A DNA stretch of 64,000 nt from Kangiella geojedonensis (GTDB taxonomy: Bacteria > Pseudomonadota > Gammaproteobacteria > Enterobacterales > Kangiellaceae), in NCBI RefSeq assembly GCF_000981765.1, contig NZ_CP010975.1, positions 62,001-126,000 on the forward strand, in the 5' to 3' direction. This document shows positions 2,728-62,074 of this stretch, piece by piece (within the stretch, counting starts at the first letter, position 1; each line of letters begins with the position of its first letter). The translations under genes were made by a program, and so were the position numbers. The notes below the pieces were generated by a model. That model worked only from the letters and a program-made list of their open reading frames with translations, was not told the origin of the DNA and ran no database searches.

Positions 2728-4086
2728 CTATTGAAGTAGGCCAAAAATAATATACAGCACTATGCTGATACCGCCAGCGGTTAGTGCATAAGGCAGCTGC
2801 GTTTTTACGTGATCAAGTAGGTCACAGCCAGCGGCTAACGATGAGATCACGGTGGTGTCGGAAATCGGTGAAGCGTGGTCACCAAACACGGCGCCACCTA
2901 ATACCGCGCCAAGCACAAGGCTTGGTGATATCCCTAGAGCCAGAGCTAGTGGGATGGCGATAGGAATTAAAATACCAAAAGTCCCCCAAGAAGTGCCTGT
3001 GGTAAAGGAAATAAACCCTGCCAGCACGAAAATTAAGGCGGGAATTAACCATAGCGGTATAAAGTCACCTACCGCTTGTGCGACGAATTCACCGGTTTTT
3101 AGGTCACCCATAGCAGACGATAGCGCAAAAGCTAACAAGACCAAAGTGACTAACGGTAATAAGTTACCAAGTCCTTTAAAGCTTTGCTCCATCAGCTCTT
3201 TGGTGGGCTTCTTTGCATCAAAACGCAGTAATCCAAAAGCTAATAAAGTCGATAAGATCACTGACCATAATACTGACTCAGAGCCAGAGCCTTTGCGTAA
3301 ATCGCCATCGCCAGTGATAAACATAAAGGCCAGAATGCTGACGACCATAAAAATTAAAGGGGCCAGCATATAACGCTTTTTAGTGGATTCAGGCAATATC
3401 TGCTCGACTTCCTCAGTGTGCTTGATGTTTTGCTCCATGGTGCGCATGGGCCCATGAACACGTGTGCTGAGCACTGTATAAAAAACGATAAGCAGAGTCA
3501 CGATGGCGTAAAAGTTAAGACCTATACTGCCGAGCATAACGCTGGTGGGATCAGCAACCGCCGTTTCTTCGACATAGCCCAGGATCGCTGCGCCCCAACC
3601 GTTTAGCAGTATTAGTACGCTGATCGGTGCGCAGGTCGAATCGATAATATAAGCGAGGCGTAAGCGACTCATTTTGAATTTATCGAACAAGGCTTGGGAC
3701 GAAAGGCCGGCGGTTAGGACGCTCATGTTGGTGTCGATAAAGATAGAGCTGCCGAGAATCGTTGGTAACATGCCAGCTTTACGCTGGTTATTGACTAAAC
3801 TACGACGAGTCAGCCAGTCGACAAAGGCGGTCACGCCACCTGAGATTTTAATCAGCTGGATCAGCGCGCCGATTAACAGACTGAACATCAAAATACGGGT
3901 GTTATAAGCGCTGGAGAAGACGTTGATAATTCGTTCAACGGTATCGGTAAAGGCGTAAACAGGGTTACCACCCACCAGAATTAAAGATGCGGTGAAAATA
4001 GCCAACAGTAGGGCGATAGTCACTTCGCGTTTCCAGATGGCGAAAATAATGGCCACGATGGGTGGCAGGATGCTTAACCAGCTCAT
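2728..4086 (-). CDS. Na+/H+ antiporter, NhaC family
   Basis: This 452-residue polytopic inner-membrane protein has about eleven hydrophobic segments. Family hallmarks are GSSIFIDTNMSVLTAGL, then TCAPISVLILLNGWG, and the C-terminal GTSWGTFGILIPIAIPLAL and GAVFGDHASPISDTTVISSLAAGCD. The FGDHxSPISDT box is characteristic of the NhaC/malate-lactate antiporter superfamily. It should extrude sodium or exchange a dicarboxylate for Na+, fitting a marine or halophilic lifestyle; substrate specificity is not readable. It is divergent from the yheV-like gene across a 92-bp control region and may be cotranscribed with aroE. Confidence 0.85.
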   Translation of the reverse strand: MSWLSILPPIVAIIFAIWKREVTIALLLAIFTASLILVGGNPVYAFTDTVERIINVFSSAYNTRILMFSLLIGALIQLIKISGGVTAFVDWLTRRSLVNNQRKAGMLPTILGSSIFIDTNMSVLTAGLSSQALFDKFKMSRLRLAYIIDSTCAPISVLILLNGWGAAILGYVEETAVADPTSVMLGSIGLNFYAIVTLLIVFYTVLSTRVHGPMRTMEQNIKHTEEVEQILPESTKKRYMLAPLIFMVVSILAFMFITGDGDLRKGSGSESVLWSVILSTLLAFGLLRFDAKKPTKELMEQSFKGLGNLLPLVTLVLLAFALSSAMGDLKTGEFVAQAVGDFIPLWLIPALIFVLAGFISFTTGTSWGTFGILIPIAIPLALALGISPSLVLGAVLGGAVFGDHASPISDTTVISSLAAGCDLLDHVKTQLPYALTAGGISIVLYIIFGLLQ

Positions 4087-4103
4087 AGTTTTATCGTTTT
4101 ATG

Positions 4104-4121
4104 TTAGACTAGCCTGTCTAA
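4104..4121. promoter_or_regulatory. Inverted repeat in the nhaC/yheV divergent spacer
   Basis: TTAGAC (4104-4109) and GTCTAA (4116-4121) are separated by 6 bp. The repeat lies in the short spacer between two divergent genes, where an operator is plausible. No regulator can be named. Confidence 0.3.
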
Positions 4122-4178
4122 GCACTCTTCTTTGTAAGGGTCGAAAAAGCACCTTATAGCAATCGGTCAACAAATTCA

Positions 4179-4424
4179 ATGAGCCATAAAACCACCCCAA
4201 AACGTTTCGTCGCTGGCGCCCGCTGCCCAGAGTGTAAGGAGATGGATAGCATCGTCTGTTATTACGAAGACGAGGTGTTCGTACGTGAGTGTGTCGAGTG
4301 TGATTTTCGGGAGTTGATTGGCGACGTAGAGCCTGAAGAAAAAGAGTCTGATCAAAAAGAGCCGGAAAGCGATGCTTCTAAAAAAGTCACTCCGGCTCAA
4401 ATTATCAAGATTAAAGAACTTTAG
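4179..4424 (+). CDS. YheV family zinc-ribbon protein
   Basis: This is an 81-residue protein. Residues 10-45 form a four-cysteine zinc ribbon, CPECKEMDS to CVECDF, preceded by TPKRFVAGARCPEC as in E. coli YheV. The rest is an acidic Glu/Asp/Lys tail (EPEEKESDQKEPESDASKK) ending in a short helix, VTPAQIIKIKEL. YheV proteins are conserved in gammaproteobacteria without established function; metal binding is inferred from the cysteines. It is convergent with hemY, with only 10 bp between the stop codons. Confidence 0.85.
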   Translation: MSHKTTPKRFVAGARCPECKEMDSIVCYYEDEVFVRECVECDFRELIGDVEPEEKESDQKEPESDASKKVTPAQIIKIKEL

Positions 4425-4434
4425 GATGCAACAC

Positions 4435-5667
4435 TTAGGCTTCTTCAGTTGGTGAGTCAGCCTCAGGAAGCAAGTTAATCGTATCGGGCTGGATCAAACT
4501 CGCTAAGCCACGCTGATACTCTTCTTGTTCTTGTATTGGATGGCCAAGTTCACGATAAGCTTGTCCTAAATAGTAATGGGCTTCGGCGGTCGGCTTCTGC
4601 TCAATACTTTTTTCCAAATAACTTTTCGCTTTACCCCAAAGCTGCGCCCTTAACGATAACTTACCTAGCGCTGTTAAAAGTGTTGTGTTGTGAGGTTTAT
4701 GTTTTAACCAAGTTTCAGCCGTAGCAAGTGTTTTCGACGGCTCCTGACTTTCGATCATGCCGTATAGCTGAGCCAAAGGCTCTTGCCATTGTTGCTTCAT
4801 GGAGTCTTTGATATGCAGCTCAAGTTGATCGTATTGATGGTGATCGGCCAAGATTTCCGCATAAGCCAACTGGCTTTGTGGGCGCTTGCGGACATTTTTA
4901 GGCAGCTTTAACCATAAGTCATTCACCGCAGGCAAACCTTCTCGCTGGGCTTTAACGCCAAGCAATTCAGCCCAGGCAATGACTTCAATATCATCGATGC
5001 GCTCAGGGTTATAAACACGGTATTTGCGCAGCTTTGGAAGAAGCTCTAATACTTTTTCCCACTCTGAAAGGCGTGTAAACAACTGGTGCAAAAGTTTTAA
5101 GACATACGGGTGGTGCGGTGACATCTCACGTAAATGGTTTAAAGTGGCTAAAGCTTGTTCAAACTGGCGATGTTGAATTTGCAGTTGAGCTTGGGTTAAA
5201 CCTATAGCGATGTGCGCGTCGGGTTGTGCTTTAGCAGCAGCTTGTAAATACTGGTCTCGACTCTTGTCATCATCTTGCTCCTGCGCAGCGCGAGCCGCCG
5301 CAAGAAAGTTGATCAGTTTTGTATCGCGGAATTTTGATCCCTTAATAAGCAAATCTTCAGCAGTTTTCCAGTGACCTTCAGCTAAAGCAATCATTCCGTC
5401 AATCGTTTGTTGGCGGGCCTTGCGTAAGTTGCGGTCGCCGAACCAGCCTACCGTAATGTTGCTAGTCTTGAGTAAATAGCGAATGAGTAACCACAGCAAC
5501 CATAAGCCAAGGAGGGATAGCAAGACCAAAGCGATGGCAAAGTTATTCTTGAACTCAATGGCAGTTTGATCGAGCAAGATGTAGGTCGAGCCAGGAACGT
5601 TGCTGATCAATGGTCCCAATATTAGTCCACCGAATAGAGCGATAAGGATGATCCATTTCAATTTCAT
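4435..5667 (-). CDS. hemY: HemY, TPR protein of the hem operon
   Basis: This 410-residue protein is the proteobacterial HemY (not the protoporphyrinogen oxidase of the same name). Two N-terminal membrane segments (residues about 5-25 and 42-65) precede a HemY_N domain with WFGDRNLRKARQQTIDGMIALAEGHW. A series of TPR-like helical pairs follows to residue 395, for example AEAHYYLGQAYRELGHPIQEQEEYQRGL. It is linked by position to late haem synthesis, but its biochemical role is unsettled. Its ATG overlaps the hemX stop by 4 bp (ATGA), so translation is coupled to hemX. Confidence 0.9.
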   Translation of the reverse strand: MKLKWIILIALFGGLILGPLISNVPGSTYILLDQTAIEFKNNFAIALVLLSLLGLWLLWLLIRYLLKTSNITVGWFGDRNLRKARQQTIDGMIALAEGHWKTAEDLLIKGSKFRDTKLINFLAAARAAQEQDDDKSRDQYLQAAAKAQPDAHIAIGLTQAQLQIQHRQFEQALATLNHLREMSPHHPYVLKLLHQLFTRLSEWEKVLELLPKLRKYRVYNPERIDDIEVIAWAELLGVKAQREGLPAVNDLWLKLPKNVRKRPQSQLAYAEILADHHQYDQLELHIKDSMKQQWQEPLAQLYGMIESQEPSKTLATAETWLKHKPHNTTLLTALGKLSLRAQLWGKAKSYLEKSIEQKPTAEAHYYLGQAYRELGHPIQEQEEYQRGLASLIQPDTINLLPEADSPTEEA

Positions 5668-8855: not shown

Positions 8856-9554
8856 TTAGTCGCCAGAAGATTGTAAAAATTGTCGAGCGTCTGCCTGGTG
8901 GCGGCGGCTGATAATTGGCTTAAATGTACAGTCTCTCAATAAAGCGACGCACTGCCCGTCATCTTGCTCAATACCATAAAAGTGTTTGCGATTAACCAAG
9001 GTGGAGCGGTGGATTCGGAGAAAAAACTGCGGAAAGCGTGTTTCTAAATCTTTAAGACTTTCGCTACTAAGCAGGGTTTTGTTGTGCAGGTGTATTTCGA
9101 TGTACTTTTGATCGGAGTGTAAGAAAAGAATATTCTTTAGCAACACTTTACGCACCGTGTCACGCTCACGCACCGTGATAAATTCGTCTTTTACTTGGGG
9201 TTTTATCAGCTTGGATAATGCTTTGTTTAAGCGTTCTTTGCGGATCGGCTTGAGTAAATAGTCGACGGCATTAACGTCAAAAGCTTCTAATGCGTATTGG
9301 TCGTAAGCGGTGGTGAAAATAATGTTTAAATGCGGAAAATCTTTGCTGAGAATGTGCGCTAGCTCGACACCGTTCATGACCGGCATGGAGATATCCAGAA
9401 AAATCAAGTCCGGCTGTAGTCGCTGTATGAATTCTAGTGCTTGCTCACCATTACTGGCTTCGGCCATCACTTCAAGCTCAGCGTATTCGTCTAGTAGGCG
9501 GTGAATCCGCTGGCGCGCCGGTTGTTCGTCGTCAACAATAATGGTTTTAAGCAT
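8856..9554 (-). CDS. LytTR-family response regulator (AlgR type)
   Basis: This 232-residue regulator has an N-terminal receiver (residues 1-118) with the phospho-acceptor Asp in LIFLDISMPVMNG, and conserved Thr/Ala and Lys in FTTAYDQYALEAF and YLLKPI. A LytTR DNA-binding domain (about 130-228) carries FLHSDQKYIEIHL and FLRIHRSTLVNRKHF. The gene sits between its kinase and hemC, the exact place of algR in pseudomonads, where AlgR controls type IV pili and exopolysaccharide; the same role here is inferred only from synteny. It is 25 bp after the kinase gene. Confidence 0.88.
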   Translation of the reverse strand: MLKTIIVDDEQPARQRIHRLLDEYAELEVMAEASNGEQALEFIQRLQPDLIFLDISMPVMNGVELAHILSKDFPHLNIIFTTAYDQYALEAFDVNAVDYLLKPIRKERLNKALSKLIKPQVKDEFITVRERDTVRKVLLKNILFLHSDQKYIEIHLHNKTLLSSESLKDLETRFPQFFLRIHRSTLVNRKHFYGIEQDDGQCVALLRDCTFKPIISRRHQADARQFLQSSGD

Positions 9555-9579
9555 CAGAGTAAGCGTTCCCCATCTATAA

Positions 9580-10617
9580 TTACAATTGTTTTGGTATTTT
9601 TACGAGGCAATAAAATTCATTCTGGGCTTGATGATATGTAAGTTGCGCTTTATTTCCATAAAGCACTTCAAGTCTTTGCTGAATATTTTTCAGTGCCATT
9701 GAGTTGCCTTTGTGGTGCTCGACTTCAGAGGGTGGTAAGGGGTTAGTAATTTCAAGCTGGATATGGTTTTGATAGCTGACCCCTTTGATCCGGATCGTAC
9801 CGCCTTCAGGACGTTTTTGAATACCATGATAGACAGCGTTTTCTAGCAATGGCTGAAGGAGCAACGGTGGCAATAGCAAATTGTCAGCAATATGATGAAC
9901 TTGCCACTCGACATTCAGGCGATCGCCAAGACGCTGAGATTCTAAGCTGAGGTACTGCTGACATAGTTGTTTTTCTTCTGAAAATGGAATCAAAACATCA
10001 GACCGTTTCATGCTGGCGCGAAAAATATCAGCCATGTCTAAAATCATCTGTTCTGTTTTTTCAGGATCGACCGCGGCGAGATTAGCCAGCGTGTTTAAGC
10101 TGTTAAATAAGAAGTGTGGGCGTATGCGCGATTGTAATGCCTGCACTCGAGCCTCCGCTTCCGATTGGATGCGCCGAACACTGTCTTCACGCAAGTAGAA
10201 ATAGCGGAAAAAGACGCCGCTGACAATAAAGGCAATAATCATATTACGTAGTAAGAACCATAGCGATGGCTCCTGACTAAGGTAAAAACTGATCAATAGG
10301 CTAAAGCAAAGTGTTACCAACAAAATGATGCTGATGGCGAGTCCTGAAAATCGCTTTAACGAAAGCTTAGACTGCACTTCTAAGGGGAGATAGTGGCGTA
10401 ATAAGCACAATAGTCCGAGACTCGTTAGCGATACCCAAAGTACAAAAAAGGAGTGCAGGCTGAGGTTATAAAAAAAGCTGGTGTGCCATTCGGGGGTGAC
10501 TAAGCTCAACAACAAAGACAGTAAAATGCTGGCGATAACGGTTAAGTAAACCGTTGCCGGCTGACAAAAGTCAGGAAGCTGCTTGGCGCTGTTTAGATTG
10601 TCATCGGTGTCATTCAT
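9580..10617 (-). CDS. LytS-type sensor histidine kinase (AlgZ/FimS type)
   Basis: This 345-residue inner-membrane kinase has four membrane segments within residues 20-145, a short coiled linker (DSVRRIQSEAEARVQALQSR) and the His_kinase domain starting RPHFLFNSLNTLANLAA, whose His is the expected autophosphorylation site. An ATPase part follows with PPLLLQPLLENAVYHGI (N box) and NSMALKNIQQRLEVLYG. It partners the LytTR regulator just downstream. No periplasmic ligand domain is evident, so the signal is probably membrane-derived. The G boxes are reduced, as usual in this kinase branch. Confidence 0.87.
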   Translation of the reverse strand: MNDTDDNLNSAKQLPDFCQPATVYLTVIASILLSLLLSLVTPEWHTSFFYNLSLHSFFVLWVSLTSLGLLCLLRHYLPLEVQSKLSLKRFSGLAISIILLVTLCFSLLISFYLSQEPSLWFLLRNMIIAFIVSGVFFRYFYLREDSVRRIQSEAEARVQALQSRIRPHFLFNSLNTLANLAAVDPEKTEQMILDMADIFRASMKRSDVLIPFSEEKQLCQQYLSLESQRLGDRLNVEWQVHHIADNLLLPPLLLQPLLENAVYHGIQKRPEGGTIRIKGVSYQNHIQLEITNPLPPSEVEHHKGNSMALKNIQQRLEVLYGNKAQLTYHQAQNEFYCLVKIPKQL

Positions 10618-10788: not shown

Positions 10789-12471
10789 TTGCCACTGGAG
10801 GTTAGAATGGAGGCTCCAAAGTTTTTAGACTGGGTAGAGCGGCATAAAATAATAATTCGCCGCTTAATGATTCCCATACTCTTGACGTCGGCTGCGCTTG
10901 TCTATCTGCTGGTTTTTCTAACCGGCGGAATTAAGTATGTCTATTCACATTCCATGTATATTCCTATTTTGCTCGCAGGTTTTGTCTTTGGCACCAAAGG
11001 CGGTGCTGTGATGGCAATCATTGCAGGAATTATTCTTGGGCCCTTTATGCCGATTAGTGTGGATACTGGGGAGATGCAAAAGACGGCGAACTGGCTTTAT
11101 CGGATGGGGTTTTTTGTGCTCATTGGATCGGTGAGCGGTTTTGCCAGCGATTGCGTGATTAAGTATATGAAGCGCCTGCGGTGGTTATCAAACTATAATC
11201 CGAACACGATGCTGCCTAACCGCAATGCTCTATTTAATGACTTAAAACGCTTCAATAAAGAAAGCTATGATGGTGACAATACTATTCTTGCGGTAGTGGC
11301 GATTGATAATATTCTTGAGCTGAAATCAGTGTTTGGTTTTGGCGTGATTGATGATGCGACTAGACAAATGGCACGCCGATTGGCGTTGAATGGTGGTGAT
11401 GATATATACCATACCGACTCGGCGCAGCTAGCTATCGTGCTCAATAAAGACCCTGAGACCAATCAAAAGTTTTTGGATAATCTGAGTGTTCTGCTTAAAG
11501 AGGCTGTGACTTATAACGATATTTCTGTGCATGTGGAAACGCGCGTGGGTTATGTCGAGTTTAAAAGAATTGAGCTAGAACCCCAAGTGTACCTACATCG
11601 AGCGGAAGCGGCTCTGGCCTTGGTTCGAGAACGAGCCATAGAAATGACGGCTTTTAATCCTAAAATAGTGACCCAGACGGAAGAAAATTTATCTATCTTG
11701 GGTGAACTGCAAACGGCCATTAAAACGAAACAGTTGTGTTTATATTATCAACCCCAGGTTGATTTAAGAACAGGTGAAATACGTAGTGTGGAAGCGTTGC
11801 TTCGGTGGCAACATCCGAAACGTGGTTTGATAATGCCAGGAGCGTTTATCGCACGAGCTGAACAAAGCAGTCTAATTCAAACCATTACTGAATTTGCATT
11901 GCGTGAGGCTATCGAGCAGCATAAACAGTGGAAAATCCAAGGCGTTGAAATCCCCGTTTCAGTCAATATCTCAACGCGCAACCTATTGCACCAAAATTTT
12001 ACCGAGCGGGTTATTGCCTTGTTGGACGAATACCAAATTGATGGTCGCTGGATCGAGCTTGAGGTTACAGAGAGTGCTATTGTTGTGGATATGGAGCAGG
12101 CCATTGATGAGTTGGTACAATTGGCTGAGGCAGGCTTTAGTATTTCCATTGACGATTTTGGTACCGGCTACTCATCACTACAATATTTGCATCGACTCCC
12201 TGTTTCATTGATTAAAATTGATCAATCATTTATCAAGCGCGTGCCAGAAGATAAAGGAGCCGTTTATATTGTTGACGCAGCGGTTACCTTAGCGCAAAAA
12301 ATGGGTATTAAAACCATTGCTGAAGGCGTCGAAACCCAAGAAGTGTATGACTACCTTCAGCAGACGGAATGCGACATGGCTCAAGGTTACTTTATTTCTA
12401 AACCTATAGCACAAGACCGTTTCAGTCGTTGGTACTTAAATCAAAATGGTGTTTACGCGCATATGGCGTAG
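10789..12471 (+). CDS. Membrane EAL-domain phosphodiesterase with degenerate GGDEF
   Basis: This is a 560-residue c-di-GMP protein. An N-terminal membrane region (residues about 20-125, four or five segments, including GFVFGTKGGAVMAIIAGIILGPFMP) is followed by a GGDEF-like domain (about 140-275), then an EAL domain (300-550). The GGDEF signature is replaced by HTDSAQL, so diguanylate cyclase activity is unlikely. The EAL part is intact: VEALLRWQHPKRG, NISTRNL, ELEVTESA, DDFGTGYSSLQYLHRLPV, KIDQSFI, AEGVET and QGYFISKP. It should hydrolyse c-di-GMP at the membrane. It is divergent from the AlgZ-like kinase. Confidence 0.88.
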   Translation: MPLEVRMEAPKFLDWVERHKIIIRRLMIPILLTSAALVYLLVFLTGGIKYVYSHSMYIPILLAGFVFGTKGGAVMAIIAGIILGPFMPISVDTGEMQKTANWLYRMGFFVLIGSVSGFASDCVIKYMKRLRWLSNYNPNTMLPNRNALFNDLKRFNKESYDGDNTILAVVAIDNILELKSVFGFGVIDDATRQMARRLALNGGDDIYHTDSAQLAIVLNKDPETNQKFLDNLSVLLKEAVTYNDISVHVETRVGYVEFKRIELEPQVYLHRAEAALALVRERAIEMTAFNPKIVTQTEENLSILGELQTAIKTKQLCLYYQPQVDLRTGEIRSVEALLRWQHPKRGLIMPGAFIARAEQSSLIQTITEFALREAIEQHKQWKIQGVEIPVSVNISTRNLLHQNFTERVIALLDEYQIDGRWIELEVTESAIVVDMEQAIDELVQLAEAGFSISIDDFGTGYSSLQYLHRLPVSLIKIDQSFIKRVPEDKGAVYIVDAAVTLAQKMGIKTIAEGVETQEVYDYLQQTECDMAQGYFISKPIAQDRFSRWYLNQNGVYAHMA

Positions 12472-27977: not shown

Positions 27978-27999
27978 GTGCAAAAATTTAATGCATTTT

Positions 28000-28030
28000 T
28001 GCATTAGAAATTCTAATTGGTTTAACCAGT
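28000..28030 (+). promoter_or_regulatory. Operator block before protease gene 4
   Basis: TGCATTAGAAA (28000-28010), then AATTGGTTTAACCAGT (28015-28030), an inverted repeat of the TTGGTNNNACCA class bound by GntR/FadR/PdhR-type regulators. The same block occurs before gene 5, and its palindrome before gene 6. The palindrome ends 21 bp before the -35 box, a position suited to activation. Confidence 0.6.
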
Positions 28031-28051
28031 CCTGCATTTGCGTTTAAAAAC

Positions 28052-28080
28052 TTGTGATCATATTTTGATCCTGATATAAA
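28052..28080 (+). promoter_or_regulatory. Promoter of protease gene 4
   Basis: TTGTGA (28052-28057), 17-bp spacer, TATAAA (28075-28080). These are the same hexamers and spacing as gene 5. TTTGTAACAAA (28093-28103) lies just after the predicted start and is also shared. Confidence 0.65.
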
Positions 28081-28179
28081 GGCTTTCGCGTGTTTGTAAC
28101 AAATTGTACACGTATAACAAAATATAATGTTTAAATCTTAAAATAGAAACAAATAAATTTAAAACCAAATGAGGGTAAT

Positions 28180-29766
28180 ATGAATCTAAAAATGAAAATG
28201 GCCTGTGCTGCAACCTTGCTAGCGCTAGGTACAGCAGCCCATGCGGAGCGAGTAATCGTATCCTATGACACTAATGGTCAAGGCTTAAAGAAAGGTCATA
28301 ACGTCTTAGTTGAAGGCAAAAACTGGTTTGCCGTAGATTTAGATGAGAAGGGAAAAAGCACCATCCGTGGTAAGAAAGGTTTTAAGTCTATGGAAAAAGA
28401 CGTAAAGCGTTTCCCAATGGGAATTTATAACGATGATTCGGGCGATCCAACTGCTCAGCAACTTACACCATACGCGGTATATCAGTCGCAAGCAGACCAG
28501 CTTGTCTTAGGGACTGGGCAAAAAGTCTGTGTGATCGACTCTGGTATTGCTGGTGCTGACGGCGAGACTGGCGGTAAAAATAATGATTTTGATTGGTCTG
28601 TAATTACCGGTGATAGCGATTCAGGTACTGGCGATTGGTTCCGCGACGGCGGCCCACACGGTACGCACGTAGCAGGGACAGTGGGTGCTGCAGATAACGG
28701 TATTGGTGTCGTAGGTATGGCTCCTGGCGTACCAATGCATATCATTAAAGTATTTAACAACGATGGCTGGGGCTATTCATCTGATTTGGCACACGCTGCA
28801 GACAAATGTACGCAAGCAGGTGCAAATATCATTACTATGAGCTTAGGTGGTGGTTTTGCGAATTCTACAGAAGAAAATGCATTCAACACTTTCACTGCTA
28901 ATGGTGGTTTGGTGTTAGCAGCTGCAGGTAATGATGGAAATACCAGCCGTTCATACCCTGCGGGTTATAAATCAGTGATGATGATTGGTGCGAATGACAA
29001 TAACAACCAAATTGCGTCTTTCTCACAACATCCAAGCTGTACAGAAAAAGGCAAAACTGATGATGGTTACTGTGTAGAAGTGACTGCTGGTGGTGTTAAC
29101 ACACTATCGACATACCCTGCAGGTGGCGCGACTCTTTCTTCGGCATCAATTGATGGCGTAGGTATTGCGTCAGCTGGCATGGAAAACAACGGTGATGCAA
29201 GTGGAAATACATACTATATGGGGCTAGGCACTTCTACGGACGCTGGAGCAAACGGAAATATATGTGTAATCGATCGTGGTGAAATTAGTTTCCACGACAA
29301 GGTTGCGAACTGTGAAAACTCTGGTGGTATTGGTGCAATTATCATTAATAACGAATCAGGGATGTTGTACGGAACCTTAGGTGATACCAACACAACAACG
29401 ATTCCTGCGGTAGGTACAGCTCTTGAAGATCGTGATGCGATTTTAGCAGCAACAAATGCTACGGTATCTGTGGGTCCTAGCGATTATGGTTATATGAGCG
29501 GCACATCAATGGCAACTCCTGCTGTTGCAGGCGTATCTGCGCTAGTTTGGTCAAACCATCCAAGCTGTTCGGGTACTGAAATCCGTAACGCTCTAAAGGC
29601 GTCAGCTGAAGATCAAGGTGCCGCTGGTCGTGATGACTATTTCGGTTATGGTATTACCAAAGCGAAAGCTGCCAGTGATTACTTAACTGCGAACGGTTGT
29701 ACCGGATCAGTGGATGATGGCGACGACGGTGGTTCATGTAAGGGTGGACCAAAAAAATGCGGCTAA
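28180..29766 (+). CDS. Secreted subtilase 4 (S8, PA insert, Cys-capped tail)
   Basis: This 528-residue preproenzyme has a signal peptide MNLKMKMACAATLLALGTAAHA. It has the same short variant propeptide as subtilase 3 (VIVSYDTNGQGLKKG to DVKRFPM). Catalytic residues are Asp120, His160 (GPHGTHVAGTVGA), oxyanion Asn in AAAGNDGN and Ser443 (GTSMATPAVAGVSAL). The PA insert contains NGNICVIDRGEISF. The C-terminus is a Gly/Asp linker plus SCKGGPKKCG. The SD is in the shared ACCAAATGAGGGTAAT leader. A secreted endoprotease is expected; whether the tail is an anchor, a disulphide loop or a processing tag is unknown. Confidence 0.92.
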   Translation: MNLKMKMACAATLLALGTAAHAERVIVSYDTNGQGLKKGHNVLVEGKNWFAVDLDEKGKSTIRGKKGFKSMEKDVKRFPMGIYNDDSGDPTAQQLTPYAVYQSQADQLVLGTGQKVCVIDSGIAGADGETGGKNNDFDWSVITGDSDSGTGDWFRDGGPHGTHVAGTVGAADNGIGVVGMAPGVPMHIIKVFNNDGWGYSSDLAHAADKCTQAGANIITMSLGGGFANSTEENAFNTFTANGGLVLAAAGNDGNTSRSYPAGYKSVMMIGANDNNNQIASFSQHPSCTEKGKTDDGYCVEVTAGGVNTLSTYPAGGATLSSASIDGVGIASAGMENNGDASGNTYYMGLGTSTDAGANGNICVIDRGEISFHDKVANCENSGGIGAIIINNESGMLYGTLGDTNTTTIPAVGTALEDRDAILAATNATVSVGPSDYGYMSGTSMATPAVAGVSALVWSNHPSCSGTEIRNALKASAEDQGAAGRDDYFGYGITKAKAASDYLTANGCTGSVDDGDDGGSCKGGPKKCG

Positions 29767-29782
29767 TCACCGGCATGTAAAT

Positions 29783-29814
29783 AAAAAAGACGGGTTAAAC
29801 CCCGTCTTTTTTTT
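29783..29814 (+). terminator. Rho-independent terminator of subtilase 4
   Basis: AAAAAAGACGGG pairs with CCCGTCTTTTTT; eight T follow GTC. Confidence 0.92.
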
Positions 29815-29844
29815 GAGTTTTAGCATAATAAAACAATGCCTATT

Positions 29845-29875
29845 TGCATTAGAAAAAATAATTGGTATTACCAGT
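29845..29875 (+). promoter_or_regulatory. Operator block before protease gene 5
   Basis: TGCATTAGAAA (29845-29855) and AATTGGTATTACCAGT (29860-29875), with the same internal spacing as before gene 4 and again 21 bp upstream of the -35 box. Confidence 0.6.
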
Positions 29876-29896
29876 GGTTGTATTATCAGGAAAAAC

Positions 29897-29925
29897 TTGT
29901 GATCAATTTTTGTACTTGTTATAAA
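29897..29925 (+). promoter_or_regulatory. Promoter of protease gene 5
   Basis: TTGTGA (29897-29902), 17-bp spacer, TATAAA (29920-29925). TTTGTAACAAA (29936-29946) and the palindrome GTAATGC-AAATA-GCATTAC (29968-29986) follow in the leader. Confidence 0.65.
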
Positions 29926-30037
29926 GCTGTTTGCATTTGTAACAAATTGTACAGTGCATAACAAAATGTAATGCAAATAGCATTACAAGAAAAGCAATAA
30001 ATCACATTCAAAAAACACCAAATGAGGGTAATATTTA

Positions 30038-31165
30038 ATGAAAAAAACATTAATAGCCAGTGCAGTTGGCATGGCATTCGTATCTGCACAAGCAATAGCT
30101 GAAAAACCAACTTTTACAACCAGTGAAGAATTAAACGTGCAAAATCGTTGCATCATCACTTTTCATGACAGCGTAGCGAAAAATCAAGTCAAAGGTTTGG
30201 CTAATGGTTTAGCGCAACGAGCAAATGCTTCGGTTCGTCATGTTTATCAAAACTCAATCAAAGGCTTTACCGTCAATGCACCTTGTACAGCGGCTGAGAA
30301 AGCCTTTGGTGGTGACATGAATGTTAAGCGTATGTCTCCCGATGGGGTAGTAAGCGTAAGTTTTGCTGGTCCTCCCGGAGGTGGTGGCAGTGAAGGTCAA
30401 ACAACACCTTATGGCACAACTCGAGTTGGCGGTCCAGTTGACGGTACCGGTTATACCGCTTGGGTAATTGATAGCGGCATTGACTTGGATCATCCAGACT
30501 TAAACGTTGACTCTAGTCGTGGTTTTACCGCAATTACTCAAGGTGGCGGCGGTATGGATGACGAAAATGGTCACGGTACTCACGTAGCGGGCACGATTGG
30601 TGCGATTGATAATACCATCGACTCTTTGGGGGTTGCGCCAAACACAACCGTAGTACCAGTACGAGTTCTAGACCGTCGTGGTTCTGGCTCTTACTCTGGC
30701 GTTATCGCTGGTGTGGATCACGTTGGCGCTAATGCATCCCCTGGTGATTGTGCAAACATGAGCTTGGGTGGGCCTGTAAGCCAAGAATTGGATGATGCTG
30801 TGATTGCTGCGTCGGAAAACTCAGGAGCTTTCTTTGTTATTGCGGCGGGTAATGATGGTGATGACGCTAACAATTATTCACCGGCACGTGCCAATGGCTC
30901 AAACGTTTGGACAATTTCTGCGACAGATTCAAGTGATGTAATGGCATCTTGGTCTAACTATGCGAACCCACCTGTAGACTATGCTGCACCTGGCGTTGGC
31001 GTATTCTCATTATGGAAAGATGGCGGAACTAACACTATTTCAGGTACTTCAATGGCATCACCACACGCTTGTGCTGTGATTATGTTGACGGGCGGCAACC
31101 CTAATACTGACGGTAATGCTACAAATGATCCAGATGGAAATCCAGACCCAATTATCCACCTTTAA
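30038..31165 (+). CDS. Secreted subtilase 5 (S8, proteinase K-like, compact)
   Basis: This 375-residue preproenzyme has a signal peptide MKKTLIASAVGMAFVSAQAIA and an I9-like propeptide (CIITFHDSV to MSPDGVVSVSF), ending in a Gly-rich linker. The catalytic domain lacks a PA insert. Catalytic residues are Asp145 (AWVIDSGIDLDHPDL), His179 (NGHGTHVAGTIGA), Asn in IAAGNDGD and Ser338 (SGTSMASPHACAVIML). VPVRVLDRRGSGSYSGVIAGVDHV is typical of the proteinase K branch. It has no C-terminal domain, ending GNPDPIIHL exactly as subtilase 6, its close paralogue. It belongs to a different lineage from subtilases 1-4. Confidence 0.93.
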   Translation: MKKTLIASAVGMAFVSAQAIAEKPTFTTSEELNVQNRCIITFHDSVAKNQVKGLANGLAQRANASVRHVYQNSIKGFTVNAPCTAAEKAFGGDMNVKRMSPDGVVSVSFAGPPGGGGSEGQTTPYGTTRVGGPVDGTGYTAWVIDSGIDLDHPDLNVDSSRGFTAITQGGGGMDDENGHGTHVAGTIGAIDNTIDSLGVAPNTTVVPVRVLDRRGSGSYSGVIAGVDHVGANASPGDCANMSLGGPVSQELDDAVIAASENSGAFFVIAAGNDGDDANNYSPARANGSNVWTISATDSSDVMASWSNYANPPVDYAAPGVGVFSLWKDGGTNTISGTSMASPHACAVIMLTGGNPNTDGNATNDPDGNPDPIIHL

Positions 31166-31191
31166 TAGAAAGTGGGTAGTAGGATAAAAAT

Positions 31192-31216
31192 GAAAGCGCC
31201 CTTCGGGGCGTTTTTT
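31192..31216 (+). terminator. Rho-independent terminator of subtilase 5
   Basis: GCGCCC-TTCG-GGGCG followed by six T, 27 bp after the stop. Confidence 0.88.
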
Positions 31217-31329
31217 CTGAGGTAGGAAAAGCGTCTAAAGTTTAAGGTATTAGTTATTTTGAGTATAAAGCTGTGTGAGTTAATGAATAAACAATAATAT
31301 ACAGCCGAGGTTTATAGATAAATTAATAT

Positions 31330-31345
31330 AATTGGTATAACCAGT
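31330..31345 (+). promoter_or_regulatory. Operator before protease gene 6
   Basis: AATTGGTATAACCAGT, the third copy of the palindrome, again ending 21 bp before the -35 hexamer. The TGCATTAGAAA part seen before genes 4 and 5 is absent. The 321-bp gap otherwise holds the subtilase-5 terminator and AT-rich sequence. Confidence 0.6.
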
Positions 31346-31366
31346 AGTGATAATAATAAATAATGC

Positions 31367-31395
31367 TTGATCGTTAAATAACCAATTGATATAAC
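31367..31395 (+). promoter_or_regulatory. Promoter of protease gene 6
   Basis: TTGATC (31367-31372), 17-bp spacer, TATAAC (31390-31395). The operator-promoter phasing is identical to genes 4 and 5. Confidence 0.6.
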
Positions 31396-49993: not shown

Positions 49994-50136
49994 GGGGATC
50001 TCCATGTCTTGAATGTTATCTTTGATGATAATATAGATAAGCCGATAAATTAAGTTACAGAGTTTTGATTTTTAAAGTAATTTAGTTGAAACTAAAGGCT
50101 TAAGTAAAAGGTAGCACTTACCTACAAAGGATCTTG

Positions 50137-53100
50137 ATGCCAAAGAATGCTTTCATCCTACTGTCTTTGCTCCTCTGGGGATGGTTGTTTACGAGTACTG
50201 TCTATTCGCCAGCGCGGGCGCAATATGCTGCGGCTGCTTTGCTTGAAGGTGAATTATCACAAAGCACCGTGACTTCGATTGTCGAAGATCGACACGGCTT
50301 TCTTTGGATAGGTACTGAGGATGGCTTAAATCGTTTTGATGGCTATAGCGTTAAGATTTATAACAAGCAAAACAGCGAGTTACCCAGTACACGAATTAAA
50401 GACTTGGTCATTGATAGTGAGGGTGAACTATGGATTGCGACCCAAAATGGTCTGGCTCTTTTTCAGCAAAGCACTGGGAAAATCATCAATTTTTATCATA
50501 ACGCTCAAGAACCATTTTCAATTGCAGACAACTTTGTCTCCAGCTTGGCTGTCGATGATAAAGGGGGGGTTTGGGTTGGAACCTATGGCGGCCCGTCTTA
50601 TTACGACCCAGCGATAAACGGTTTTCGTACGCTTCCCATTATGAAAAGCCGACGCGTGCCAGCGGCTTTGTCTGAGGTAAAAGATATCATCGTCGACAGT
50701 CAGCAACGAGTATGGCTAGTGACCACACGGGGTGATTTGGCGCGTTTCATGCCCGCGGTGAATCAATTTATCGTGATTGATAATCCAGCCATGCAAAGCT
50801 TGGGCTTGCTAGAAGCGATGGCTGAAACGCCTGAGGGCCGCTTGTGGCTACTATCACCTCAAGCAGGTTTGGTTGAGTTTGATCCTGTGGAGCAAAGCTT
50901 TAAACAGTTACGGATAGAAGATATTGGGCTTGAAGATAACGAACTTAAGCTGAATAGTTTGTATTTTGATAAAGAGCAACGATTGTGGGTGGGAACTCAG
51001 AAAAAAGGTCTCTACACCATTAAGAATAAGCGAGTTGTTGATCATCATACTTATGGTAAGCCGGGTGCTGTTGGCAGTAATCGGATTAATGTTTTATACC
51101 AAGATAGTAGCGATATTCTTTGGATTGGCTCTTCCTCCTACCTCAATAAAATCAATCCTAATGCGATCAATTTTATTCATATCGATCATTCTCAAAGCAA
51201 GCATGGATCGCTTAAAAGTGATGTAACTTATTCTTTGCTAGCGACCAGCTATGATCACTTATTAGTCGGAAGTGATGTTAGTGGTCTGACAGTGCTCAAA
51301 CGGACTTATGATGGTGCTGAACCCGTGGAAGTCACATTGCCACCAGAACTGGAAGGTAAGAGCATCAATAAATTAATAGAGATTGGTGCTGGGCGGCACT
51401 GGTTGATTTCTGAACAGTCAATATGGAAGTTTGATGAATTAAAGTTGTCGTTTGAGTTAGTGTATCAGGCCAGCAGTCCGCGAGATTACTTTTTGACCGC
51501 GCACTATGACCAGCAATTCTTATGGTTAGGGACGGCTAAAGGCGTGTGGCGCTTGGGTGCTGATCATTCTTTAAAGAAATACCGCTTAGTTGATATCAAT
51601 TACCACAGAAATAACCGCATCAATGTTCTTATGCCGGATAAGTCAGGTGACTATCTGTGGGTTGGCTCTGATAGTGGCGTTTACCGATTTAGTAAACAGG
51701 ATGAAAGCTTCATCTCGTTAGATAACCTGTTTACTGATTTGCCACCGCAAGCAAAAGAAGTGGTGTTAAGTCTAGCGCTTGATCAAGATTCACGGTTATG
51801 GGTCGGTACTTTTGGCAACGGCTTGGTGGTTGTGGACCTAGTGAGTCAGCAATACACGGTGTTGAATAATGCGGTTAGCAGTTTGCACGAAACCATTTAC
51901 TCATTACTTCAAGACGAGTCCGGAACCATTTGGGCGGGAACTGGTGGTGGCTTGTATCGAATTGATACCTCTGATTACAGTATGTCCCAATTCTCGATGA
52001 CCGAAGACCAGCCTATCATAGAGTTTAATACTGGAGCGACGACTCGCGATCGGGTGGGAAACCTATACTTTGGTGGTATGAATGGGGTCATTTCCTTTAA
52101 CCCATCAGCTTATACCGAAGACGACACACCTCCTAAACCAGTGATTACGGATATTCTAGTCAATAATCACTCGATTATTGTGGGCGAAGCACATCGTCAG
52201 CGATTAACCAAGCCAGCGAATATTGCTGAGCAGGTTAAAATTTACCCTGAAGATACTGCCGTTAGTTTTGATTTTTCGGGGTTTAATTACACGGATCCTT
52301 GGAGTAATCGCTTTCGTTACATGTTGGAAGGTTATGATTCTGACTGGATAGAGACAGACGCTAAAAGCCGTCGCGTTACTTACACGAATTTAAAGCCGGG
52401 AACTTATCACTTCAAAGTCAATGCTGCGAATAAAGATGGGTTCTGGAGCGAACAGCCAGCAGAAATTGAGGTGAAGGTTCAAACCTTATCCTGGTTATCC
52501 CCGCTGGCGTATACCGTTTATGGATTTATACTCGGTTTGGTGATTCTTGCCTTTTCTTATTTGATTTGGTCAAGGATGCGTGAGCGTCAATCAGCAGCCC
52601 AGCAGCTGGCGGAAAGTGAAGAGCGTCTTAAGTTATCACTGTGGGGAAGTGGCGATGAGCTTTGGGATTGGCAGGTTAATACTGGGGCTTTGCACCTGTC
52701 GAACGAATGGCCTTATGACTTCCCACGCGACGGTATCCGTAGTGGTTATTCAATGGCTAACTCGAATATCCACCCCAATGACTTACCTTACGTCAAACAA
52801 GCACTTAACGCTCATTTAGCCGGAAAATCGTTACACTTTGAGAGCACTTATCGTATCAGCAATGAACGAGGCGGTTGGATTTGGGTGCTGGATCGCGGCA
52901 AAGTGGTGGCTAGGGATGAGCATAAAAAGCCGCTGAGAATGGCGGGCACCTTGAAGAATATTAGCGACTTAAAAGACACCGAGCAGCAATTGAGCATGGT
53001 GGTGAAGTCCTTCGATAATATCTCAGACGGGGTCTGGATTTTGGATGAAGATTATAACTATATTGCAGTGAATAAGGCTTACACTAAAATTACCGGCTTT

Positions 53101-54699
53101 GATTCTGAAGAGGTTATCGGCCAACCCATCAGAGAAACCGCCATTGTAAATGCGCCGGATAATTTCATTGAAGAGTTGCGTGAAGTCTTAGTGTCTGAAG
53201 GAAGCTGGAGCGGCGAACTAGAGGCGATTAGGAACAACGGTCAGGTTTATCCGATAGAGATTAATATTGATGTGGTGCGTGATGGTGATGGTAACATTAT
53301 CAACTATGTCGGGGTTTTTTCGGATATTACTTTTCGCAAAAAAGCGGAAAAAGAATTACGCCGTCTCGCAACCGTCGATCAATTAACCGGTTTACGCAAC
53401 CGAAATAGCTTTAAGCAACGATTTGAAGAGTTGTTAGCCTTATCGGGTGATTCGGATCAACATGCACTGTTATTTATAGATTTAGACAATTTTAAACGCA
53501 TTAATGATTCTCTTGGGCATGGAGTTGGTGATGAGTTACTAACCTCGGTAGCCAAAGCATTGTTAAGTATCTCGGAAGATAATAATGGCATAGTGGCGCG
53601 CTTGGGTGGTGATGAGTTTACCGTAGTATTGAGCGACGTTGATACTTGGAGTCAGCCAGCAAAATATGCGCAAGCAATTCTCGATCATTTCTCAAAACCT
53701 CTACCTTTATCGAGTGCTGAGGTGGTGGTTTCGCCTAGCATTGGAATCGTGATGTATCCCGAGAATGGTGAAAGCGCCGAAGAACTGCTGAAGAACGCCG
53801 ATATGGCGATGTATTATGCCAAGAAAAAAGGCAAGAATACTTATCAATTCTACACCCGCCAAATGAATGAGCAGGCACAGTTAAGAATTAACCTTGAAAG
53901 TGAGTTGCGCCAAGCCATTGAAAAAGATGAGTTTGTAGTCTTCTATCAGCCGAAAGTGAGCTTGGAAACCGGTAAAATTACGAGTATGGAGGCGTTGGTA
54001 CGCTGGCGTAACCCCAACCGCGGTTTGGTCATGCCGGGTGAGTTCATCCCGCTGGCGGAAGAGGCTGGCTTTATTATCCCAATCAGTCAGAAAGTGATAG
54101 AAAAGACCTGTTTACAGCTGCGTGACTGGAAGAATCGTGGCATTTACGATGGAAAAATTGCAGTTAACTTGTCTGCGGTTCAGTTTTACCATGAAAATTT
54201 GTGGGAAACGGTTAAAACAGCGCTACATATCGCTAAAATAGAAGCGACATCACTAGAGTTTGAAATTACCGAAGGTATGGTGATGGAGGACTTGGCTCAT
54301 TCGATTCAGCAGATGAAAACCCTCAAGGAAATGGGGATTAGTTTAGCCCTGGATGACTTTGGTGTGGGTTACTCTTCGCTAGGAAACTTAAAAGACTTCC
54401 CGATTGATACCTTAAAGATTGATCGATCATTTGTATGGGATCTGGAAGACTCTGAACGCGATCAAAAGCTGGTGGCTTCTATTGTGACCTTGGCTCATAA
54501 CTTAGGAATAAAGGTTGTGGCAGAGGGCGTAGAGACGGTATTACAGGTAGAAGCTCTGCGGGAAATGGAGTGTGAAGAAATCCAGGGCTATATCTTTAGT
54601 AAGCCAGTCCCTCCATGGGAAATTGAAGCGATGTTGACCAATCCGGACTATAGTTTGTTTGATATTTTGAAAGAGATGGAAGGAGAGGAAGAGGGCTAG
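50137..54699 (+). CDS. Propeller sensor with Y_Y_Y, PAS, GGDEF and EAL domains
   Basis: This 1520-residue protein starts at the ATG at 50137, behind AAAGGA. The signal peptide covers about residues 1-28. A periplasmic two-component-regulator propeller (about 30-680) has repeated DxxGxLWIGT-like blades. A Y_Y_Y domain (about 700-785, FDFSGFNYTDPWSNRFRYMLEGYDSDW) and one membrane helix (WLSPLAYTVYGFILGLVILAFSYLIW) follow. Two PAS domains (about 825-950, 955-1075) precede GGDEF (about 1080-1240, intact GGDEF in ARLGGDEFTVVL) and EAL (about 1255-1505, MEALVRW, DDFGVGYSS, AEGVET). Both catalytic domains look active, so it may switch between making and breaking c-di-GMP on a periplasmic, perhaps glycan-like, signal. 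Confidence 0.93.
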   Translation: MPKNAFILLSLLLWGWLFTSTVYSPARAQYAAAALLEGELSQSTVTSIVEDRHGFLWIGTEDGLNRFDGYSVKIYNKQNSELPSTRIKDLVIDSEGELWIATQNGLALFQQSTGKIINFYHNAQEPFSIADNFVSSLAVDDKGGVWVGTYGGPSYYDPAINGFRTLPIMKSRRVPAALSEVKDIIVDSQQRVWLVTTRGDLARFMPAVNQFIVIDNPAMQSLGLLEAMAETPEGRLWLLSPQAGLVEFDPVEQSFKQLRIEDIGLEDNELKLNSLYFDKEQRLWVGTQKKGLYTIKNKRVVDHHTYGKPGAVGSNRINVLYQDSSDILWIGSSSYLNKINPNAINFIHIDHSQSKHGSLKSDVTYSLLATSYDHLLVGSDVSGLTVLKRTYDGAEPVEVTLPPELEGKSINKLIEIGAGRHWLISEQSIWKFDELKLSFELVYQASSPRDYFLTAHYDQQFLWLGTAKGVWRLGADHSLKKYRLVDINYHRNNRINVLMPDKSGDYLWVGSDSGVYRFSKQDESFISLDNLFTDLPPQAKEVVLSLALDQDSRLWVGTFGNGLVVVDLVSQQYTVLNNAVSSLHETIYSLLQDESGTIWAGTGGGLYRIDTSDYSMSQFSMTEDQPIIEFNTGATTRDRVGNLYFGGMNGVISFNPSAYTEDDTPPKPVITDILVNNHSIIVGEAHRQRLTKPANIAEQVKIYPEDTAVSFDFSGFNYTDPWSNRFRYMLEGYDSDWIETDAKSRRVTYTNLKPGTYHFKVNAANKDGFWSEQPAEIEVKVQTLSWLSPLAYTVYGFILGLVILAFSYLIWSRMRERQSAAQQLAESEERLKLSLWGSGDELWDWQVNTGALHLSNEWPYDFPRDGIRSGYSMANSNIHPNDLPYVKQALNAHLAGKSLHFESTYRISNERGGWIWVLDRGKVVARDEHKKPLRMAGTLKNISDLKDTEQQLSMVVKSFDNISDGVWILDEDYNYIAVNKAYTKITGFDSEEVIGQPIRETAIVNAPDNFIEELREVLVSEGSWSGELEAIRNNGQVYPIEINIDVVRDGDGNIINYVGVFSDITFRKKAEKELRRLATVDQLTGLRNRNSFKQRFEELLALSGDSDQHALLFIDLDNFKRINDSLGHGVGDELLTSVAKALLSISEDNNGIVARLGGDEFTVVLSDVDTWSQPAKYAQAILDHFSKPLPLSSAEVVVSPSIGIVMYPENGESAEELLKNADMAMYYAKKKGKNTYQFYTRQMNEQAQLRINLESELRQAIEKDEFVVFYQPKVSLETGKITSMEALVRWRNPNRGLVMPGEFIPLAEEAGFIIPISQKVIEKTCLQLRDWKNRGIYDGKIAVNLSAVQFYHENLWETVKTALHIAKIEATSLEFEITEGMVMEDLAHSIQQMKTLKEMGISLALDDFGVGYSSLGNLKDFPIDTLKIDRSFVWDLEDSERDQKLVASIVTLAHNLGIKVVAEGVETVLQVEALREMECEEIQGYIFSKPVPPWEIEAMLTNPDYSLFDILKEMEGEEEG

Positions 54700-60731: not shown

Positions 60732-60758
60732 ATGGGAAGCTTGTATCTATGGGGGTAG
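60732..60758 (+). CDS. Possible 8-codon leader ORF (MGSLYLWG)
   Basis: The ATG at 60732 follows a near-perfect Shine-Dalgarno GGAGGGAG (60722-60729) and encodes MGSLYLWG, stopping 2 bp before the response-regulator ATG at 60761. It could promote translation of the next gene by termination-reinitiation. It may instead be chance. Confidence 0.3.
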   Translation: MGSLYLWG

Positions 60759-60760
60759 AT

Positions 60761-62074
60761 ATGTCTAAGAAAGCATTAATTGTGGATGATTCTAGAACGG
60801 CGTTTATGGTTCTAGCGCGCGTTTTATCAAACTATGATATTCAAAGTATTCATGCTAAGTCAGGCGACGAAGCTATAGTTTACCTTAAGGATAATGTGGT
60901 GGACGTTATCTTTTTGGATCAGGCGATGCCAGGGAAAGATGGATTTGAAACTATCAAGGAGTTGAAGGAAAGCTCTAAAACCGATGATATTCCTGTCATG
61001 ATGTTTACTGCGAGAAGCGGTGAGAAATACCATCAAGAAGTTAAAGCACTAGGTGCCGTAGGGGTTTTGCCAAAAGAGCTTTCTTCTGAAGAAGTGGAAG
61101 AGGCTTTGTTAAAACTTAACCTGTGGGGTGCTATTTCGGGGAATGTGTCTGCTGAACAAGTTGAGAACGATATTCTCCAACCAACTGCAGACGAAAAGTT
61201 ACGTGTGTGGTTGGAGTCTTTTCTGGAAAATGAATTTTCACCCCAGCTGTCCAATAAAGTGCGTAAAGCCACTGATGATTTGCGCCGAGACACTATTCAT
61301 TACGGCAAACGGATGTTGGATGAGATTGCTAAAAGCGACAAACAGCAACAGGTTTTGCAAGAAGTCAAAGGTCAAACGGATTACCTAAAACAACTATTTA
61401 CCACATCGTTTAAGCAGTATCGATTCATTAGTACGGTTTTTATTGTACTGCTATTCGTTTTAACGGCAGGGATTATTTGGCTATTATACCAAACGACTTC
61501 TCTAGCAGCTGAGCAGTGGCGTTTACAGCAAAAAATTGCAGAGCTCTCAGTAGAAAGTGCCGCTGGTGAAAAACGCTTGAGTAATAAAATCGATCAACAG
61601 TCATTAGCGGTAGAAAACTTAGTGGCTGAAAAAAACAATGCCGACAATGAGAGTACTCTTGAGACACACAATAGCGGAATTTATAGTGAGCAGGGAATAG
61701 TCGGTAAATTGATTAGTATTGAAGCTGAGGGCAACCGATTAACCGCAAAGAGTGCCTACGGGTATTTATTTATGATAACCCCACAAGGAAGAGTAGCTGA
61801 TAATAATATCAAGCGTTACTACATTGAACCAGGCTGTAATGGTGCCGTGTATGCTAATGCAGTTCCTGGGGTAGTGCTAAAGGTGGGGCAAAATACTTTA
61901 GGTTATACTGAGTTACAAGGATACGCCTTAGTTCAGAAGCCACTAAGCTGGATGGATAATACCAATCAATGCCATGAATATAAAAACGACAAAGAGATTG
62001 TGCTAAGGCAACTGGTTGAAAATGATGAAAGAATCACTGGCGTTACTGATACGGTGTACTTTCAGCTAAATTAA
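60761..62074 (+). CDS. Response regulator receiver fused to membrane/periplasmic domain
   Basis: This 437-residue protein has an N-terminal receiver (residues 1-118, KALIVDDSRTAFMVLARVL, phospho-Asp in DVIFLDQAMPGKDGFE, FTARSGEKYH, and Lys in LPKELS). An amphipathic region (about 135-215) and one membrane helix (FISTVFIVLLFVLTAGIIWLLY, about 222-244) follow. After a coiled coil comes a C-terminal beta-rich domain (about 300-437, MITPQGRVADNN to DTVYFQLN) placed in the periplasm. A receiver on a membrane anchor with no DNA-binding or enzymatic output is unusual. The ATG at 60761 is chosen; an ATG at 60749 would add four residues. Confidence 0.8.
   Translation: MSKKALIVDDSRTAFMVLARVLSNYDIQSIHAKSGDEAIVYLKDNVVDVIFLDQAMPGKDGFETIKELKESSKTDDIPVMMFTARSGEKYHQEVKALGAVGVLPKELSSEEVEEALLKLNLWGAISGNVSAEQVENDILQPTADEKLRVWLESFLENEFSPQLSNKVRKATDDLRRDTIHYGKRMLDEIAKSDKQQQVLQEVKGQTDYLKQLFTTSFKQYRFISTVFIVLLFVLTAGIIWLLYQTTSLAAEQWRLQQKIAELSVESAAGEKRLSNKIDQQSLAVENLVAEKNNADNESTLETHNSGIYSEQGIVGKLISIEAEGNRLTAKSAYGYLFMITPQGRVADNNIKRYYIEPGCNGAVYANAVPGVVLKVGQNTLGYTELQGYALVQKPLSWMDNTNQCHEYKNDKEIVLRQLVENDERITGVTDTVYFQLN

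Follow-up and report, generated by a model that had tools for sequence, protein, structure and literature searches.

A phased operator before the small subtilase genes of Kangiella, with FadR as its probable binder

Kangiella has been described as living on protein (PMC6000758), in a paper whose main text contains neither "promoter" nor "regulat". The control of its many proteases becomes a concrete question in a 64,000-nucleotide stretch of the Kangiella geojedonensis genome (the window; C1:62001-126000 of 2,495,242 bases), where six consecutive S8 subtilase genes lie between 21245 and 32620 (Pfam) and the promoters of genes 4, 5 and 6 carry the same palindromic box. What is this palindrome, and which protein would bind it?

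Each of the three TTGGTnnnACCA palindromes ends 21 base pairs (bp) before a TTGnnn -35 hexamer, which is followed after 17 bp by TATAA (Table 1); the positions and both gaps claimed for these promoters in the initial annotation are exact. If the predicted -10 hexamers are correct and transcription starts at the standard distance, the box is centred at about -64; that annotation had put it near -65, a position typical of activators. The window contains five matches to TTGGTnnnACCA compared with 0.53 in shuffles, none of 100 shuffles reaching five; two of the five are codons within gene 4. In the whole genome AATTGGTnnnACCAGT has three exact matches, all at genes 4-6, and its reversed-pattern control has none. 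A genome-wide scan allowing two mismatches gave no excess of the box (93 places vs 141 in the control). A loose motif is therefore of no use here, and what carries the signal is the exact box in its promoter setting, not the scattered motif that the initial annotation had named as a reason for doubt. A simple sigma-70 scan did not report the promoters of genes 4-6 because it requires a final T in the -10 hexamer, which here ends in A or C.

Table 1. Promoter elements and subtilase genes, in window coordinates
Feature	Position	Strand	Remark
Second palindrome AATGCATTTTTGCATTAG, gene 4 promoter	27990..28007	+	above box
Operator palindrome AATTGGTTTAACCAGT, gene 4	28015..28030	+	AATTGGTnnnACCAGT present only three times in genome
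-35 hexamer TTGTGA, gene 4	28052..28057	+	21 bp past box
-10 hexamer TATAAA, gene 4	28075..28080	+	17-bp spacer
Gene 4, S8 subtilase with PA domain, 528 amino acids	28180..29766	+	probably secreted; Pfam
Second palindrome AATGCCTATTTGCATTAG, gene 5 promoter	29835..29852	+	above box
Operator palindrome AATTGGTATTACCAGT, gene 5	29860..29875	+	
-35 hexamer TTGTGA, gene 5	29897..29902	+	21-bp gap to box
-10 hexamer TATAAA, gene 5	29920..29925	+	17-bp spacer
Gene 5, small S8 subtilase, 375 amino acids	30038..31165	+	probably secreted; Pfam
Operator palindrome AATTGGTATAACCAGT, gene 6	31330..31345	+	
-35 hexamer TTGATC, gene 6	31367..31372	+	21-bp gap to box
-10 hexamer TATAAC, gene 6	31390..31395	+	17-bp spacer
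Gene 6, small S8 subtilase, 377 amino acids	31487..32620	+	probably secreted; Pfam

Comparison across the genus, a step that the initial annotation had recommended, gave better evidence than the annotation itself could offer. The gene 5 protein has matches in 19 of 20 Kangiella genomes, and a close small-subtilase family, defined by at least 65% identity, comprises 19 loci, among them genes 5 and 6; all 19 are preceded by the box-TTG-TATAA architecture within one mismatch. A DNA search of fixed 62-bp length (TGGTnnnACC, 24 bp, TTG, 20 bp, TATAA, with one mismatch allowed) found 30 places in the genus vs 11 in a reversed control. Twenty-two of these precede S8 subtilases, namely the 19 close family members, gene 4 and two distant homologues of 40% identity (in G009 and G015); seven of the remaining eight fall within reading frames and one is intergenic. 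Exact matches are at subtilases in 13 of 14 cases, and 19 of the 22 promoters were also found independently by the protein search, which makes no use of the DNA pattern. The gene 6 protein is 95% identical to a K. taiwanensis homologue that has the same box and phasing. The leader between promoter and start codon varies in length among the family promoters (57, 92 and 113 bases, for example). In one genome rated 100% complete (G017) no close homologue of the small subtilases was found, and FabA is matched there at only 21 bits. Twenty further genomes from other genera of the family gave five places, four of them within reading frames and the fifth (L316) outside.

Information per base, computed from the 13 non-redundant promoters among the 22 with a pattern search that itself favours the box, TTG and TATAA positions, was 1.85 for TGGT, 1.79 for ACC and 2.0 for TTG and TATAA, compared with 0.61 and 0.78 for the spacers. 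The proteins of genes 5 and 6 are 76% identical, and their upstream regions align only over the 24-bp box block, at the end of the leader and, weakly, over one run of 14 bp. Conservation of box, TTG and TATAA between diverged spacers is a pattern that common descent alone does not predict, and it is near certain that the palindrome is a selected transcription-factor operator. The -35 hexamers in the genus are non-consensus (TTGTGA, TTGATC, TTGATT, TTGTTC, TTGCGC), so that all 22 promoters have the operator at a fixed distance 5' of a non-consensus -35, as in activator-dependent sigma-70 promoters. Such a fixed upstream position is typical of activation.

One line of the original argument does not survive. 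The initial annotation reasoned that the downstream genes belong to two subtilase lineages, so that the shared box could not be explained by recent gene duplication only. The regions upstream of genes 4 and 5 are 72.6% identical over 201 bp (E 4e-25), and the closest gene 4 homologue among those compared, from K. shandongensis (88% identical), has a different promoter without the box. Gene 4 has probably captured the promoter of its neighbour gene 5, and with a copied promoter the two lineages are not independent evidence. The proposal of a dedicated protease regulon likewise went too far: the box marks a single subtilase family and, in addition, the promoter that gene 4 captured from it, but inspection of the regions upstream of genes 1-3 of the same array (with PA and PPC, PA and PKD, and PA domains, respectively; Pfam) revealed no box.

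The box had been assigned to the GntR class (FadR/PdhR/LldR), with a regulator outside the window and a possible tie to fatty-acid status, and the genome does encode a protein that answers to this description. A search for GntR-domain proteins found three, namely FadR, HutC and a short protein of 124 amino acids. FadR and HutC exceed family cut-offs (for FadR, TIGR02812 at 321 bits vs a cut-off of 249) and the short protein exceeds none. The hutC gene adjoins urocanase, and the gene for the short protein adjoins an ABC transporter; we take the latter protein to be YtrA-like. Of the three, FadR alone belongs to the FadR/PdhR/LldR type, and its gene (G000:C1:670645-671364) lies outside the window. 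The DNA contacts listed for Escherichia coli FadR (R35, T44, R45, T46, T47, R49 and H65; PMC4259882) are all identical in the Kangiella protein, as aligned to 1e2x. FadR occurs once in 19 of the 20 genomes, the exception being a genome that is 55% complete, and a search of the 20 genomes for a second FadR-like protein found none, although this search also missed HutC and is weak for distant GntR relatives; for the K. geojedonensis genome itself the GntR-domain search serves as the test. About 126 bp 3' of fadR a phospholipase of the VolA/Pla-1 family is encoded (L152:2146-2868, 2994-5150), a possible link of lipid sensing to lipid scavenging.

FadR-type boxes can be recognized at the fatty-acid genes of the genus. 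The fadBA box ATTGGTCAGACCAGA is present in all 19 Kangiella genomes with an orthologue, and the divergent pepQ-fadB layout of E. coli is kept along with it; a box of the form TGGTC(A/T)GACCA precedes the acyl-CoA dehydrogenase gene in all 20 genomes. These fad boxes lie 43-85 bp (acyl-CoA dehydrogenase) and about 131-261 bp (fadBA) from the start codon. Two genomes (G001, G004; L263, L265) carry a further TGGTATAACCA site, about 46 bp 5' of the acyl-CoA dehydrogenase box.

A matrix built from the 18 distinct sequences among 39 Kangiella fad boxes allows the protease boxes to be compared with known sites. All three window boxes have the TGGTnnnACCA core, which they share with E. coli FadR operators, flanked on the outside by T/C and G; a review gives the FadR consensus as aaCTGGTCnGACC(T/A)Gtt (PMC9329746). 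They score 9.1-10.6 on the full matrix and 16.8-18.3 with the centre masked, much like the E. coli fadBA site (11.4 and 17.7). On the full matrix they are above the other E. coli sites (fadD2 4.3, fabA 0.2, fabB -0.3, fadD1 -12.7), whose low scores mean that the matrix misses several real sites. With the centre masked the three boxes outscore every other site in the window, and the score of 16.8 was reached by none of 2000 shuffled upstream regions; on the full matrix, 0.6% reached at least 9.

A weak FadR-like element also precedes the -10 of Kangiella fabA, recalling the E. coli arrangement. This element, for example ATCTGCTCCAACCAGAT or AACTGTCCAAACCAGAT, is separated by 17 bp from a CATAAT -10, is centred near -38, and is found at that position in 18 of the 19 genomes listed (L363-L381; own genome L371). 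Its matrix scores run from 1.6 to 10.3 with one of -10.9 (4.3 in the own genome), and the likeness to FadR sites is apparent only by eye. In E. coli, FadR is described as overlapping the -40 region of fabA (PMC3462791), and by analogy the element suggests that FadR may also activate in Kangiella. In the whole genome TGGTnnnACCA occurs at 72 places vs 54 in a control. Sixty-nine of these were examined (all but 2384704, 2446066 and 2452869), and 13 entries have no long reading frame over them (limits of 100 and 130 amino acids): fadBA, genes 4-6, an FadH/OYE-family oxidoreductase gene, where the centre is ATA, acyl-CoA dehydrogenase, and seven others that show no clear link. One TCTGGTACAACCAGC site (L210:996-1010) with no long frame over it is some 330 bp away from the start of a gene whose product resembles a secreted hydrolase by eye; its only Pfam match is DUF7379, below the cut-off.

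Several properties of the boxes weigh against FadR as the activator. The CnG centre found in 39 of 39 fad boxes is present in none of the 22 protease boxes, and on the full matrix the protease boxes are far below the Kangiella fad boxes (18.9-24.1), the lowest two in the genus scoring 2.4 and 2.6; within the window they rank only 3rd, 5th and 8th, behind, for example, a coding site at 29544. Several boxes in the genus are damaged (TTGGTTTGTCCAG; TTGGTAAGGCC), so that the full TGGTnnnACCA core is not kept by all of them, and the fixed phasing is partly due to common descent. The positions of the fabA element (-38) and the protease boxes (-64) differ by about 2.5 helical turns, which implies contact with polymerase from a different face. 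The box near -64 and the protease targets are likewise unlike E. coli FadR operators. The arms, moreover, fit the E. coli PdhR box, AATTGGTnnnACCAATT (PMC7660256), at least as well as the FadR site: with arms of AATTGGT...ACCA, each window box matches 12 of the 14 specified bases, and the K. shandongensis box AATTGGTAAGACCAATT matches all 14 and equals the E. coli pdhR box given in that source letter for letter. PdhR is described as able to activate genes outside metabolism (PMC11508082), but in contrast to E. coli the Kangiella genome yielded no PdhR among its three GntR-domain proteins, and the sequence can also be described as a PdhR-like box in a genome without PdhR. With arms that agree, a centre that differs and a likeness to PdhR sites as well, we predict FadR as the probable, not the established, binder of the protease boxes.

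The differences in the centre and the tolerated damage to the right half of the box, together with the restriction of box and phasing to one gene family plus gene 4, could also mean that a real and activating operator is bound by some other regulator, perhaps not of the GntR class. We consider this possible, if on balance unlikely, since the arms and the 3-bp spacing are of FadR/PdhR type and FadR is the sole such protein found in the genome, while CnG is missing as well from two E. coli sites, the one at fadBA (ACG) and the second one at fadD (ATG) (PMC4259882). Nor do the scanned proteins of the window supply an obvious substitute, the only regulator types among them being a LytTR response regulator encoded next to its kinase at 8856-10617, one EAL protein at 10789-12471 and, at 60749-62074, a protein with a receiver domain; these Pfam scans, run partly at E 1e-8, covered the window apart from a frame of 1521 amino acids (50134-54699) and short overlapping frames.

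FadR might instead bind and repress, as it does at the fad genes of E. coli (PMC9329746), if it stood in the way of an upstream activator or of an alpha-subunit site, for example at a second palindrome near -90. A palindrome of the form AATGCnnnnnTGCATTAG does sit just 5' of the box at genes 4 and 5, and its right half TGCATTAG is found above the box in 8 of the 22 protease promoters of the genus. However, the element is absent from the other 14, and the protease box is always at one exact distance 5' of a non-consensus -35 whereas the distances of the fad boxes vary; repression is thus distinctly unlikely. (The sequence GCATTAGAAAAA is also found 5' of gene 3, at about 26144.) Least probable by far is a box that is a mere passenger, spread within a promoter block by tandem duplication and now devoid of function: the tandem array and the copied promoter of gene 4 would fit, but the spacers and the sequence 5' of the box have diverged around a conserved box, TTG and TATAA, and the conservation holds throughout the close family.

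Activation by FadR, to which we give about an even chance, would operate on the small-subtilase family at about -64 during a shortage of fatty acids; the binding, the activation and the physiology are what we infer from the comparisons above. FadR is an acyl-CoA-sensing GntR repressor/activator and the most likely binder of the operator. With fatty acids scarce, free FadR would bind 5' of the promoter and touch RNA polymerase, and this contact would raise transcription from promoters with non-consensus -35 hexamers. Acyl-CoA is reported to inactivate FadR for DNA binding (PMC7660256). Long-chain acyl-CoA would then release FadR from the operator, so that under this model protease output would rise as lipid runs short; the same release would relieve repression of the fad genes and reduce secreted protease, and the cell would thereby switch between feeding on lipid and feeding on protein. 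The presence of FadR in the genome supports the possible tie to fatty-acid status that had been proposed, with FadR as the candidate sensor.

A limited literature search, covering titles and the openings of abstracts, found no FadR control of secreted proteases. We suggest, tentatively and with rather less than even confidence, that FadR was recruited as an upstream activator of subtilases at about -64, a position new for FadR relative to the literature cited here, that it serves as a lipid-versus-protein switch, and that a second protease joined through a captured promoter. The control of Kangiella proteases becomes testable with a candidate regulator that can be named, an operator known to the base and a genus-wide set of promoters, and if the regulator is indeed FadR, a single acyl-CoA sensor would decide whether the cell feeds on lipid or on protein.

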